Assembly (NCBI GenBank): GCA_949297305.1
Contig: CASFSG010000031.1
Location: forward strand, 1 to 36,797
Direction: 5' to 3'
DNA length: 36,797 bases
DNA from: an uncultured bacterium
GTDB taxonomy: Bacteria; Bacillota_I; Bacilli_A; RFN20; CAG-826
Translations under genes and position numbers: made by a program
Notes under the pieces: generated by a model
The model's database searches: none
What the model was told of the DNA's origin: nothing
Seen by the model: only the letters and a program-made list of their open reading frames with translations
Part shown: piece after piece, positions 3,868-8,497 of the stretch
Layout of the letters: every line of letters starts with the position of its first letter
How positions within the stretch are numbered: position 1 is the first letter of the stretch

Positions 3868-4857
3868 TTAAGCAACTAAAGATGAATCAGGAAGAAGGGT
3901 GCCATTAAGAGAACTACTAATCGAACCACTTGCTTCTTTAACAACATAAAAATTAGGGTAAGCAATTGTAAAGTTAGCACACAAAATAATCATTAAAAGC
4001 GCGGCGATAATTAATATTGACGACAATAAAAAACATAAATGTTGGTAATTTAATAATTTTTCACTTTGATATTTACGGGCGTAATTCAATAAAACAAAAG
4101 AAGCAATAGCGCTTACTAAAGCAATAGAGCCACCAATAAAACCAAATTTTGGTAACCAACCAACTAATATGCCAATAACAGCTAATCCTGTTAATAAAAT
4201 AGCAATTAAAGCAAACTTATCATAACGATTATAAAATTGTTTCGCGGCAATCTTTTCTTCTTCGCTAGAAAAGTCCTTACTGACCACAACATTTTTCAAG
4301 GTTGATAAATGCATATGATCAAAATTTTTAAAGAAGAAAACGACAAAAGGAACTACCGCGACAATCGCTAATAAAGCACAAACAAAATATAAAACCCAAG
4401 CAATCAAATTAATTGAATTAGCACCTAAGACACCTTTAATGCTCGTAACATAAACAATAGACATTATAACATGAACAAACGATAAAAAGGCACTGACCGC
4501 TAACATAAGAGGCGAAGTTAATGTAATATTTTTCTTCTCGCGTGTAAAATAATAGGAAGAGGAGAAATATATACTCAGTATCGAGCATAGAATACTTAAA
4601 ACGACACTAAAGAAGAAAATCATACCCACGAACGGATTTTCTTCATTGCTAAGGCCGATGCCTAAAATATATGATTCATCCAAACCATATAGAGTCAATG
4701 ATAAAATTGCCATCAAAGCAATGACAACACCTAAAACGGTGTAAACAAGCCCTAAATAACGCATATCGCGCAATTTCTTTAGAAAAATTTTTAAGCGAAC
4801 TTTTAATGTATAATCTTCTTCAGTAAATGGAGAATTTTTATTTGCTTCTATATTCAT
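3868..4857 (-). CDS. polytopic membrane protein, function unknown
   Basis: No family recognised. The 329-aa product has a polar 30-residue N-terminus rich in Lys/Arg, then about seven membrane helices (near 35-56, 77-102, 114-138, 150-176, 214-234, 240-260, 273-296) and a Ser-rich tail (GSISSSLNGTLLPDSSLVA). A 36-residue charged loop separates helices 4 and 5, which could mean two related halves, though I could not establish repeat similarity. There are no charged motifs in the helices that point to a known transporter. The ATG has an AAGGGGG ribosome-binding site and its own strong promoter, so it is probably transcribed separately from the upstream HEPN-CBS operon, and a terminator follows. 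Confidence 0.8.
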   Translation of the reverse strand: MNIEANKNSPFTEEDYTLKVRLKIFLKKLRDMRYLGLVYTVLGVVIALMAILSLTLYGLDESYILGIGLSNEENPFVGMIFFFSVVLSILCSILSIYFSSSYYFTREKKNITLTSPLMLAVSAFLSFVHVIMSIVYVTSIKGVLGANSINLIAWVLYFVCALLAIVAVVPFVVFFFKNFDHMHLSTLKNVVVSKDFSSEEEKIAAKQFYNRYDKFALIAILLTGLAVIGILVGWLPKFGFIGGSIALVSAIASFVLLNYARKYQSEKLLNYQHLCFLLSSILIIAALLMIILCANFTIAYPNFYVVKEASGSISSSLNGTLLPDSSLVA

Positions 4858-4917: not shown

Positions 4918-5640
4918 TTAATTTTCTAAATTAACGACATCATAAGGCGTAATAATCCCAAGTAATTGTTCATCTAATTTACCTTCGCTAGTCACAAAAA
5001 CCATAACGAGTTTTTTCCCCTTATGATAATAACTTTCAAAAGCTTCAGCGATTTCATCAGCGCGATCGTTTTTACTATAAACGCGATAATATTCAGATAT
5101 ATGTTTATCGATTGGTAAATATTCTAATAAATCAATAATGGATAATTCGCTTGAATTTTTATCTCTTTTTTCCGTTAAATAACGAATTAAAACATTTGGT
5201 GAAAAAACGCCAATTAGTTCAAAATTATCATTTAATATTGGGACTTGTAAATTCCCACGATGCACCATTTTAACCAATAAATCGTTTACGCGATCTTCTA
5301 GTTTAGCATAGAGCAATTTATCGAGTTTGGTGCAGATATGAATTGCTCTTTTAGGAGAGGACAATATTTCAATCTCTTCTTGAAGAAAGTTCAATAATTT
5401 TGGGGTTATCTCAATTAATCCATCTTTATTCATGTCAAAGTCATGGACAAGCGAGTTGCGTAACTGTCTAATTAAATTCAATGTTCGCCCTCTTTCAATC
5501 GTTTTGGCAAACGCAGATTTTTGCAATTCCAAAGCATAAGTCATAATATAGGACTTATTGCGGCCGTTTTGACGATATCTATTTTCTAATAAATTATCTA
5601 ATATATTATAAAGTTGGATAAATTCTTGAGCGCTATTCAT
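4918..5640 (-). CDS. HEPN-like domain fused to a CBS-domain pair
   Basis: The 240-aa protein has two parts. The N-terminal 95 residues are all-helical and carry RQLRNSLVHDF, with R61-N-S-L-V-H66 matching the Rx4-6H (RNxxxH) signature of HEPN RNases. Residues from about 105 on form a CBS pair: ...VPILNDNFELIGVFSPNVLIRYL and ...KLVMVFVTSEGKLDEQLLGIITPYDVVNL; the G-I-I-T-x-x-D end is typical. CBS domains usually bind adenine nucleotides. I infer, without proof, an RNase or RNA-binding protein gated by nucleotide level. An in-frame TTG lies 3 bp upstream, but ATG at 5640 is preferred, with AAAGGAG 9 nt away. It overlaps the preceding gene by 8 bp, so the two are co-translated. It could also be a non-catalytic HEPN scaffold. 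Confidence 0.7.
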   Translation of the reverse strand: MNSAQEFIQLYNILDNLLENRYRQNGRNKSYIMTYALELQKSAFAKTIERGRTLNLIRQLRNSLVHDFDMNKDGLIEITPKLLNFLQEEIEILSSPKRAIHICTKLDKLLYAKLEDRVNDLLVKMVHRGNLQVPILNDNFELIGVFSPNVLIRYLTEKRDKNSSELSIIDLLEYLPIDKHISEYYRVYSKNDRADEIAEAFESYYHKGKKLVMVFVTSEGKLDEQLLGIITPYDVVNLEN

Positions 5641-6607
5641 CAATCAAAACTCCTTTAAATTTCTCTAAATATTTTTCAATTAAAATACTTTTTTCTTCGA
5701 TAATATGTGGTTTTAAATTATAAAAACTTGCGATATTACTAAGTTCATCGCTAAGAAAATATTTTGCTGATAAATTGAGTAAGGACGCAGCTAGGATGCG
5801 CGGAGATTGATAAAGATCTTTTATATTATAAGGTATAACAGTGGTAATTACGTCTTCGATTAATCCCTTACTAACCTCGCTAAAAGTTATATTATCGTGA
5901 TAACTTTGAATCTCTTTTATCGTTAAAGCAACAAAATCATTTATATTATCCAAATATTTTTTTGTGATTGCAATGACGCTTGAACCATCAAAATAATCTA
6001 TTTCATCTACGATAAAATTATGACGATATAATTCGATAACAATAATATTTTTAATTAACGAGTTAACAATATCTTCGTCCTGCAAGAGATATTCTTTAAA
6101 ATATTTGAGATATTTTTTAAAAGTGTTTTTATTTTGATTAGATGAATGAATGAGATAATCGATTTCTAAATCGTAGACAAAATTAGATAATTTGTCGAGG
6201 ATTTGCTGCTCTTTTAAAGCAATTCTTTCGTCTTTATGCAAAATTTCATCAATCATTTTCTCATATAATCGCGGTAAATCATTCACCAATTCTTCCACCT
6301 CTTGAGAATGATAGGGATAATCGCGGTATTTATTATAGAGTTTTTGAATTTCTTCCGCTTTGTTCATTTTAATATATAAATCTCTTTGAAAAGTAATCGT
6401 CATAAATAAATTACATTTTTCCAATTGAACAATATTTGAATTTAAAATTTTAATCGCCTCAGAAAAGTTTCCTAAGCTTAAATAAATATCAATCAAAAAA
6501 AATAAAGCTTCTTCATCATCAATAAATCTCTTTAAATACTTAATTGCGTCTTTTTCTTGATGATAAAAAATTAGGCGCTCAACATAATCTTTTTCACTTT
6601 GTTTCAT
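5633..6607 (-). CDS. helical-repeat protein with possible cyclin-like C-terminal domain, unknown function
   Basis: This 324-aa protein is soluble and nearly all helix. Residues 1-110 look like TPR-type repeats (EKDAIKYLKRF, EALFFLIDIYLSLGNFSEAIKIL). The middle is Lys/Asp/Glu-rich helix. The last 90 residues, with SPRILAASLLNLSAKYF and then IASFYNLKPHIIEEKSILIEKYL, follow the hydrophobic pattern of a cyclin/TFIIB box; this is resemblance by eye, not an established hit. It overlaps the nitroreductase upstream by 14 bp and the HEPN-CBS gene downstream by 8 bp, making a tight operon. That coupling suggests it works with the HEPN-CBS protein, perhaps as an adaptor. No catalytic motif is apparent. 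Confidence 0.6.
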   Translation of the reverse strand: MKQSEKDYVERLIFYHQEKDAIKYLKRFIDDEEALFFLIDIYLSLGNFSEAIKILNSNIVQLEKCNLFMTITFQRDLYIKMNKAEEIQKLYNKYRDYPYHSQEVEELVNDLPRLYEKMIDEILHKDERIALKEQQILDKLSNFVYDLEIDYLIHSSNQNKNTFKKYLKYFKEYLLQDEDIVNSLIKNIIVIELYRHNFIVDEIDYFDGSSVIAITKKYLDNINDFVALTIKEIQSYHDNITFSEVSKGLIEDVITTVIPYNIKDLYQSPRILAASLLNLSAKYFLSDELSNIASFYNLKPHIIEEKSILIEKYLEKFKGVLIDE

Positions 6608-7121
6608 ACTTATTAAAATGTAACTTATCTACCTCGATAGAAGTTTTTTGATAAAAATCTTTTTCAGGGTTCTCGCTATAACCAAAAACGATTGAGGAAT
6701 GTGGGATTAAATGTGGCGGTAAATTAAAATATTTACTCAAATCATCCATCCTAACTTTGCGAGGATAAGTACCTAAATAACAACAGCCAATATGAAGAGA
6801 AGTTGCCATCAACATCATATTTTCCGCCATCAAAGAACAGTCGACAAAAGCATAATCTCCCATCGATAAGTTTTTGTCGGCAAGAATGATGATAGCAAGT
6901 GGACACTCTTTAAGCATCCTTCCTGGTGCTTCGTAAATTTTTGCTAAATCATTTAAAATATCTTTATTGTCAATTACTAGAACTTGCCAAGGCTTTTTGT
7001 TGCAAGCGCTAGGACTAGCAAAACCAGCACATAAAATCGCATTTAAATCTTCTTTTTTTATAGGTTTGCTTAAATATTTTCTAACTGAACGTCTTTTTAA
7101 AATCGCTTCGCTTGTTTCCAT
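6594..7121 (-). CDS. nitroreductase-family FMN oxidoreductase
   Basis: The 175-aa product belongs to the nitroreductase superfamily, FMN-dependent NAD(P)H oxidoreductases acting as dimers. Family signs are RRSVRKYLSKPI (residues 10-21, FMN-phosphate-binding arginines), ASPSACNKKPWQVLVI (about 35-50), the central AENMMLMATSLHIGCCYLGTY with the flavin-contacting Gly, and the C-terminal FGYSENPEK. The size fits the short class of the family. The substrate is not predictable. It is the first gene of the operon with the helical-repeat and HEPN-CBS genes. No Shine-Dalgarno precedes the ATG; a weak -10 (GATAAA or TAAATT) lies 6-8 bp upstream, so the transcript may be leaderless. Confidence 0.9.
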   Translation of the reverse strand: METSEAILKRRSVRKYLSKPIKKEDLNAILCAGFASPSACNKKPWQVLVIDNKDILNDLAKIYEAPGRMLKECPLAIIILADKNLSMGDYAFVDCSLMAENMMLMATSLHIGCCYLGTYPRKVRMDDLSKYFNLPPHLIPHSSIVFGYSENPEKDFYQKTSIEVDKLHFNKYETK

Positions 7122-7189
7122 ATAAAGAATTTATCACATTTTGCTTATTAAGTCTTTATTTTTCTTTAGAAAAGTTCCAAAATTTATAC

Positions 7190-8497
7190 ATGCGTTTAAA
7201 TGGTTATAAATTTAAATTTATTTTATTAGAAATACTTAAATGTCTATTGATGGGCTTATTTATCGGGGTCCTTACCGCTTTATATAAATACGCGGTTGAA
7301 CTCGTTCTTTACTTATCAGGAGTTTTATTTTCGATTAACAACTTACCTTCGCTAGGAGTAGGCCTGATATCCGCTTTTGCATTACTATTCATTGGTTATT
7401 ATATGTTAACAAGCGAAGGTTCGATTCAAGGTAGCGGACTAGCTCAACTAGAACTAAACATCGCTTATAATCAAGGAACAATTAAATGGTACAAGGCTTT
7501 ACCAATGATGTTTGTAAATAGCCTCATTTCGTTTTTTGTCGGAATTCCAGTCGGAAAAGAAGGTCCGATTGTTTTTATGGGAGGTACGGTTGCAATCGGC
7601 TTAAAACGTTTCTATAAAAGTCAAGATCATGAAGACATCGCCCTTGGCATGGGGGCAGGGTTTGGAAGCGCCTTTCTTTCACCGTTAAGTGGGGTAGCCT
7701 ACACTTTTGAAGAAGGTCTCGAACATTTTTCTTTTTTTAAATTATTCAAAGCGATAATCACTTGCTTTGTCGCCGCCTTGACAAGCTATGCAATTAATCC
7801 AGAATTTGTCTACCAATTAAATGTCAACGTAGGTTTTAATTGGGCAACATCCTATACTTTAATTTTTCTTTTCTTAGTTGAATTATTAGTAGCTTACTTA
7901 CTCTTAAACGGCACGAAACACGTCAAAATTTTTATTAACAAGCATTATCAAAATTTTTGCATTAAGTATCGTTACATTTTTATTTATGTTATTTCTATTG
8001 CAATTTTAATATCGCTCCCTTTAATTTCTGGTAGTGGTTTAAATATTACCAATTCAATTTTTGCCGAGGAAGAAATAATGACGATTTATTGGGTCGTTAT
8101 TCTAATTCTGTTATATCGTTTAATCATTTTTATAATTGCTGGTAATTCAATGGCTAGTGGCGGGAACGCTCTACCAATTTTAACTCTAGGCGCCTTAGTG
8201 GCAAAATTGCTGACATTTTTATTTCACCTATTTCCTAATTATGATATGACGCAAGATTATCTAATAATTATTTTGGGTATGACTACTTTATTTGCGATGA
8301 TGAATAACGCTCCAATTACGAGCTTTTTTCTCACTTTATCATTTGGAGGATTAAGTAATCTATTAACAACAATATTTCCGTCTTTAATTATGATGATATC
8401 AATCTTTATCTATAATAAATTTAAACCAAAAGATAATATTATTGCCGTTTTAAGAAAACTACTTAAAACATCAAACGCCAATAAAATAGATCATTAA
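7190..8497 (+). CDS. CLC-family chloride/proton (or related anion) antiporter
   Basis: This is a membrane protein of the CLC family, about 435 aa from the ATG at 7190. Three selectivity regions are visible: EGSIQGSGLAQLE (GSG at about 81-83), PVGKEGPIVFMGG (122-126, with gating Glu124), and a divergent third motif, ASGGNALP, where G-x-F-x-P is normal. The internal proton glutamate position is kept (GVAYTFEEGLEHF, about 174-175), favouring an H+-coupled antiporter over a channel. No C-terminal CBS domains are present. The frame stays open upstream to a TTG at 7112 that overlaps the divergent nitroreductase, but those residues are not CLC-like and 7190 fits the family better. There is no convincing ribosome-binding site. 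The transported anion (chloride or fluoride) cannot be fixed from sequence. Confidence 0.87.
   Translation: MRLNGYKFKFILLEILKCLLMGLFIGVLTALYKYAVELVLYLSGVLFSINNLPSLGVGLISAFALLFIGYYMLTSEGSIQGSGLAQLELNIAYNQGTIKWYKALPMMFVNSLISFFVGIPVGKEGPIVFMGGTVAIGLKRFYKSQDHEDIALGMGAGFGSAFLSPLSGVAYTFEEGLEHFSFFKLFKAIITCFVAALTSYAINPEFVYQLNVNVGFNWATSYTLIFLFLVELLVAYLLLNGTKHVKIFINKHYQNFCIKYRYIFIYVISIAILISLPLISGSGLNITNSIFAEEEIMTIYWVVILILLYRLIIFIIAGNSMASGGNALPILTLGALVAKLLTFLFHLFPNYDMTQDYLIIILGMTTLFAMMNNAPITSFFLTLSFGGLSNLLTTIFPSLIMMISIFIYNKFKPKDNIIAVLRKLLKTSNANKIDH

Follow-up and report, generated by a model that had tools for sequence, protein, structure and literature searches.

Three genes on the minus strand of a contig from an uncultured bacterium overlap one another, and the last of them joins a HEPN domain to a CBS pair. 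Does this operon encode an undescribed module, a nucleotide-gated ribonuclease with its adaptor, as an earlier note on the sequence proposed? The window (the whole stretch of DNA analyzed) is the entire 36.8-kb contig, part of a genome of 1.22 Mb in 93 contigs. The answer reached here is that the HEPN-CBS protein is real, well conserved, and of a known kind, and that there is no new module. HEPN-CBS fusions were already listed in 2013.

The gene arrangement itself was described correctly. A nitroreductase-family FMN enzyme (6594..7121, minus strand, 175 aa; Pfam E 1.8e-26) comes first, and overlaps by 14 bp (6594-6607) the gene for a 324-aa protein with N-terminal TPR-like repeats (5633..6607, minus). 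This middle gene in turn overlaps the HEPN-CBS gene by 8 bp (5633-5640), counting from an ATG start. The HEPN-CBS reading frame (minus) is either 4918..5640 (ATG, 240 aa) or 4918..5643 (TTG, 241 aa); the ATG is favored because GGAG lies 9 bases 5' of it. (Residue numbers used here are counted from the TTG, one codon before the ATG, and therefore exceed those of the earlier note by one.) In all three genomes examined from the genus, the nitroreductase gene stands ahead of the middle gene.

The flanks can be described briefly. A membrane protein gene (3868..4857, minus), 60 bp downstream of HEPN-CBS, matches no family over cut-off and has homologs in both other genomes of the genus. Also downstream of the operon are rimP-nusA and the genes following them (292-2734, minus), which occur near HEPN-CBS in another genus as well (L126, L127). 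On the plus strand, 7112-8497 encodes what we take, judging the sequence by eye, to be a chloride-channel-like membrane protein. The TTG listed as its start falls within the divergent nitroreductase gene, a 10-bp overlap which suggests that translation probably begins further in.

The N-terminal domain of the HEPN-CBS protein (residues ~4-95) is very likely HEPN, a conclusion drawn from motif, helices, and profiles together. The HEPN Rx4-6H motif is present in its RN...H form: R62 and H67 (the R61 and H66 of the earlier note, which had recognized an Rx4H motif) are invariant, along with N63, in all 68 distinct full-length relatives, as are F8 and P135. An AlphaFold2 model (mean pLDDT 81.7, from an input alignment of 7 rows; two of the five models have pLDDT near 57-60) contains four N-terminal helices (4-26, 32-41, 46-66, and 81-95) followed by the CBS pair. 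The modeled helices form a four-helix bundle with the motif near a helix end. A helical N-terminus and the retention of both residues in homologs agree with the fold that had been proposed.

Profile searches point weakly the same way. When the first 94 residues, aligned in 53 rows, were searched as a profile against PDB chains, three matches up to E 10 were returned, all labeled "toxin HepN family" and all weak (E 0.009-0.02). In Pfam, the families matched by the 53 rows included HEPN_RiboL-PSP (17 rows), HepT-like (8), HEPN_Cthe2314 (7), and DUF4145 (6), all weakly and with every HEPN match under its curated cut-off; the best match, reaching E 7e-6 and seen in 30 of the 53 rows, was DUF6548, of unknown function. 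Among the VIA-align matches listed for the whole protein, which CBS proteins filled, there was no HEPN chain for the N-terminus.

The C-terminal half (residues ~97-240) is a CBS pair, as had been supposed: Pfam scores it at 26.9 bits, against a cut-off of 24, and CBS is matched in 28 of 28 relatives. In the CBS2 ribose motif GxxT/SxxD (T232-D235), D235 is present in 65 of 68 relatives and T or S occupies position 232 in 58 of 68. CBS1 is without the ribose-motif Asp (position 151 varies among the 68 relatives), so at most one canonical nucleotide site is expected.

Which nucleotide might occupy that site? Aligned by VIA-align, the model matches CBSX1 (Z 15.6, rmsd 3.5, 129 residues aligned) and DarB with c-di-AMP (Z 14.7, rmsd 3.0, 127 aligned); over the CBS part, structure comparison leaves CBSX1/2, DarB, and AcuB about tied. 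Because the scores of CBSX2-AMP and AcuB-ADP differ from that of DarB by less than 1 Z, the DarB match does not single out c-di-AMP. This nucleotide is a possible ligand, with DarB among the best matches and one diadenylate cyclase gene present in the source genome; AMP/ATP is equally possible.

How widespread, and how constrained, is the gene? Seventy HEPN-CBS matches fall in 69 of 395 sampled genomes of the class, spread over nine families and usually in single copy (threshold E <= 4e-23; the next matches stand below a gap, at 7e-11). One class genome has two neighboring copies: at L112 they are arranged nearly in tandem with an opposite-strand gene between them, the second interrupted by one in-frame stop. 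In a phylum sample, which has many genomes in common with the class sample, the gene is present in 54 of 392. Only 39 of 126 genomes in the source organism's family carry it, which indicates that it is dispensable in this group. No other protein of the operon is as well conserved: HEPN-CBS is 91% identical to its homolog in the sister species and 64% identical in a second species, versus 53% for NusA, 52% for nitroreductase, and 34% for RimP in the latter comparison. None was found in phages, and none in viral contigs by a scan with short peptide patterns of two sub-alignments, which distant copies could escape; plasmids yielded one match, to the CBS part only. Judged by these sequence comparisons, HEPN-CBS looks like a constrained chromosomal gene.

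The contexts of HEPN-CBS are lineage-specific, and include no constant partner. Layouts were made for 73 loci, with the HEPN-CBS ORF appearing in 71. (The two others, L104 and L111, were missed probably by an overlap filter or threshold; both yield a HEPN-CBS sequence in the alignment of relatives.) Eight loci of family f5 have an Mrp gene nearby, five loci from part of family f25 have LytR-CpsA-Psr and MurB genes, and genera of family f1 have a gene for DegV or cardiolipin synthase. In family f28 the neighbors are rplQ and ecfA: HEPN-CBS lies between the two, downstream of rpoA, at L113, L149, L150, and L153, and one extra gene separates it from rplQ at L135, L136, and L148. An NrnA-like oligoribonuclease/pAp phosphatase gene lies within three genes of HEPN-CBS at six loci from two families (f5 loci; L106:7548-8498); the one example tested scored under the NCBIfam cut-off.

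One arrangement is suggestive. In family f18, a gap of just 2-3 bp separates the end of the ThpR gene from HEPN-CBS in each of the five loci with the upstream side covered (L100:3438-3977, L102, L103, L118, and L141); at the sixth, L140, no gene lies upstream before the contig end. ThpR, an RNA 2',3'-cyclic phosphodiesterase, is identified over the NCBIfam cut-off, and HEPN ribonucleases leave 2',3'-cyclic phosphate ends. A general link between ThpR and HEPN-CBS was considered and ruled out: among 24 HEPN-CBS genomes, ThpR is absent from 15 and encoded elsewhere in 5.

CBS modules need not act as nucleotide switches. In archaea, the CBS modules of HibA and Dri act on ribosomes, and AMP or ATP has little effect on ribosome binding by HibA (PMC13324472); this is reason for caution in equating CBS with nucleotide control. 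HibA consists of an HPF/RaiA domain plus a CBS module (PMC13324472), and offers a precedent for a different reading, in which the HEPN domain binds RNA or the ribosome without cutting, and the CBS pair sets occupancy as in archaeal ribosome-hibernation factors. The seven f28 loci with rplQ within two genes of HEPN-CBS would fit, as would the presence of CBS proteins 9zni, 9znf, and 9e6q among the best PDB sequence matches (that these are ribosome entries is a guess from their numeric chain names). Those matches cover the CBS part only, though, and the RN...H residues are invariant in 68 of 68 relatives, as expected of a catalytic HEPN domain. Non-catalytic HEPN domains often lose them. Binding without cleavage is accordingly an unlikely account, and a ribonuclease remains the preferred one.

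The most familiar HEPN domains are those of toxins and defense effectors, and toxins of the "HepN family" are paired with a nucleotidyltransferase antitoxin. Might HEPN-CBS be a toxin, and the TPR protein its antitoxin? The short overlapping operon has the right form, and all three PDB profile matches are HEPN toxins. But no nucleotidyltransferase adjoins HEPN-CBS, whose neighbors here are the TPR, nitroreductase, and membrane proteins; across relatives it has no constant neighbor; it was not found in the viral contigs or phages searched; and it is strongly conserved and usually present once per genome. Such a pair is highly improbable. A role in anti-phage abortive infection is scarcely credible. 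Several Abi families are HEPN proteins, and Abi_2 is weakly matched in 3 of the 53 N-terminal rows, but PADLOC returns no match for HEPN-CBS, and its contexts (for example rplQ/ecfA, MurB, and Mrp) are of a housekeeping kind.

What, then, is the middle protein? The TPR-like repeats attributed to it hold up: residues 1-135 are modeled mostly as a confident helical repeat, with Pfam TPR below cut-off, and most of the weak PDB matches are to helical-repeat proteins, TPR or other. Confidence in the model is limited to this TPR-like part, about residues 1-120. A cyclin/TFIIB box, suggested from the hydrophobic pattern of the last 90 residues, found no support: no cyclin family is matched in Pfam, and the model has pLDDT of about 31-49 in this segment. 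In alignments it corresponds to the normal C-terminal end of a family of ~300-aa proteins whose genes are linked to tig.

Homology to that family is full-length. Among 25 clustered homolog loci outside the genus, 22 include tig in the same locus, adjoining or near (the trigger factor identity of these neighbors was established by Pfam, on examples). A profile of the 25 relatives matches the middle protein (E 4.9e-20) and, in a second species of the genus (G001), the corresponding protein (E 1.5e-38), and the match spans nearly the whole length, with ranges taken from two copies of the genus. The signature Y..PYxSQxVEE is kept in the middle protein, and Y..PYxSQ is common to the tig-linked family, whose members are about 16-22% identical to it. 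By these alignments, the middle protein is a divergent full-length homolog of the ~300-aa tig-linked TPR protein. The latter may correspond to the B. subtilis protein YsoA, by synteny (ysoA lies upstream of tig). A literature search on YsoA brought up a paper on heat stress and was otherwise uninformative.

In the source genome, tig is on another contig (G000:C25, L063), and the TPR gene is absent upstream; the gene there is, by our assumption from inspecting the sequence by eye, esterase-like. Because tig is elsewhere and has another gene upstream, the TPR gene appears to have been displaced. It occurs once each in 117 of the 126 family genomes, and is the fastest-evolving gene of the stretch, with 53% identity to the sister species versus 68-93% for other genes.

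Are the two genes nevertheless a pair? Both are present in 37 genomes, within 3 kb of each other in 10 and apart in 27. Direct adjacency is seen in three of these 37, all in the source genus: the genes overlap in two, and lie 15 bp apart in the third. The other close cases are four genomes of genus g13 and three of g24. The order in g24 is HEPN-CBS, a TetR gene, the TPR gene, and tig; g13 has the same TetR-TPR-tig layout, plus one or two opposite-strand genes between. Linkage of the TPR gene to HEPN-CBS is thus wider than the genus and is mostly not kept. The expectation that the pair would recur elsewhere is borne out as proximity, in two other genera of the family, but not as direct adjacency, which is confined to the source genus.

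These counts bear on the proposal that the TPR protein serves HEPN-CBS specifically, as its adaptor or regulator. Adjacency in three genomes of one genus speaks for it, as does proximity in the seven more genomes of two other genera, where the TPR gene lies by tig. Against this, the genes are apart in 27 of 37 genomes, the TPR gene occurs without HEPN-CBS in 80 of 126, its usual neighbor is tig (22 of 25), and the two proteins evolve at very different rates (91% versus 53% identity to the sister species). An adaptor for HEPN-CBS is therefore very unlikely, and this part of the earlier proposal goes unsupported. The upstream TPR gene and the nitroreductase gene are probably operon companions, not parts of a machine, and the three-gene operon itself holds little further interest.

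The HEPN-CBS protein is another matter. We think it reasonably likely to be a HEPN ribonuclease, chromosomal and probably housekeeping, with an adenine-type nucleotide at the CBS pair setting its activity. In the likely mechanism, a homodimer would be held together by the CBS module and the HEPN bundle, with the RN...H motifs of the two subunits brought face to face where the HEPN domains join. RNA would be cleaved in a metal-independent way that leaves 2',3'-cyclic phosphate ends. The dimer would shift between open and closed states when the CBS2 site (T232-D235) binds AMP/ATP or c-di-AMP. We infer the ribonuclease activity, the dimer, the ligand, and the direction of control alike. A bolder version is tentative, and on balance unlikely: that in Bacilli the family serves as a housekeeping ribonuclease under the control of c-di-AMP (or of the AMP/ATP ratio), linking a second messenger directly to RNA turnover, and that in one lineage the ends are processed by the 2',3'-cyclic phosphodiesterase encoded 2-3 bp upstream. 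More generally, HEPN-CBS, as a strongly conserved, chromosomal, usually single-copy protein whose catalytic motif is invariant in many families of the class, would be a housekeeping HEPN ribonuclease under nucleotide control, an idea in print since 2013. Some families include complete genomes in which HEPN-CBS could be tested.

Comparison with known systems places the protein more exactly. The motif invariance, the model, and the profile matches all favor a nucleotide-gated ribonuclease, yet the idea has been described before: Anantharaman et al. 2013 list HEPN-CBS fusions and propose that nucleotide sensing by CBS regulates RNA stability (PMC3710099). Those fusions carry HEPN and CBS in one chain, as does the HEPN-CBS protein here. 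The examples they name, from Pelobacter and the CBS+HD form alr3009, are likened to it by domain pairing and not by sequence. A literature search, with most subscription journals outside its reach, found no experimental follow-up of HEPN-CBS fusions. HEPN toxins of the "HepN family" (5yep, 6m6u, 6m6w, 7aer) are weakly matched by the N-terminal profile around the helix that bears RN...H (E 0.009-0.02), but are without a CBS part; so_3166/so_3165 is a HEPN toxin/nucleotidyltransferase antitoxin pair of this general design (PMC7701990). The CBS modules of DarB/CbpB and OpuCA, which bind c-di-AMP or AMP, have the CBS-pair fold in common with HEPN-CBS (Z about 13-15), but DarB consists of CBS only and sequence identity is about 15%. 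Finally, YsoA-like tig-linked TPR proteins lie by tig, whereas the middle gene of this operon does not.
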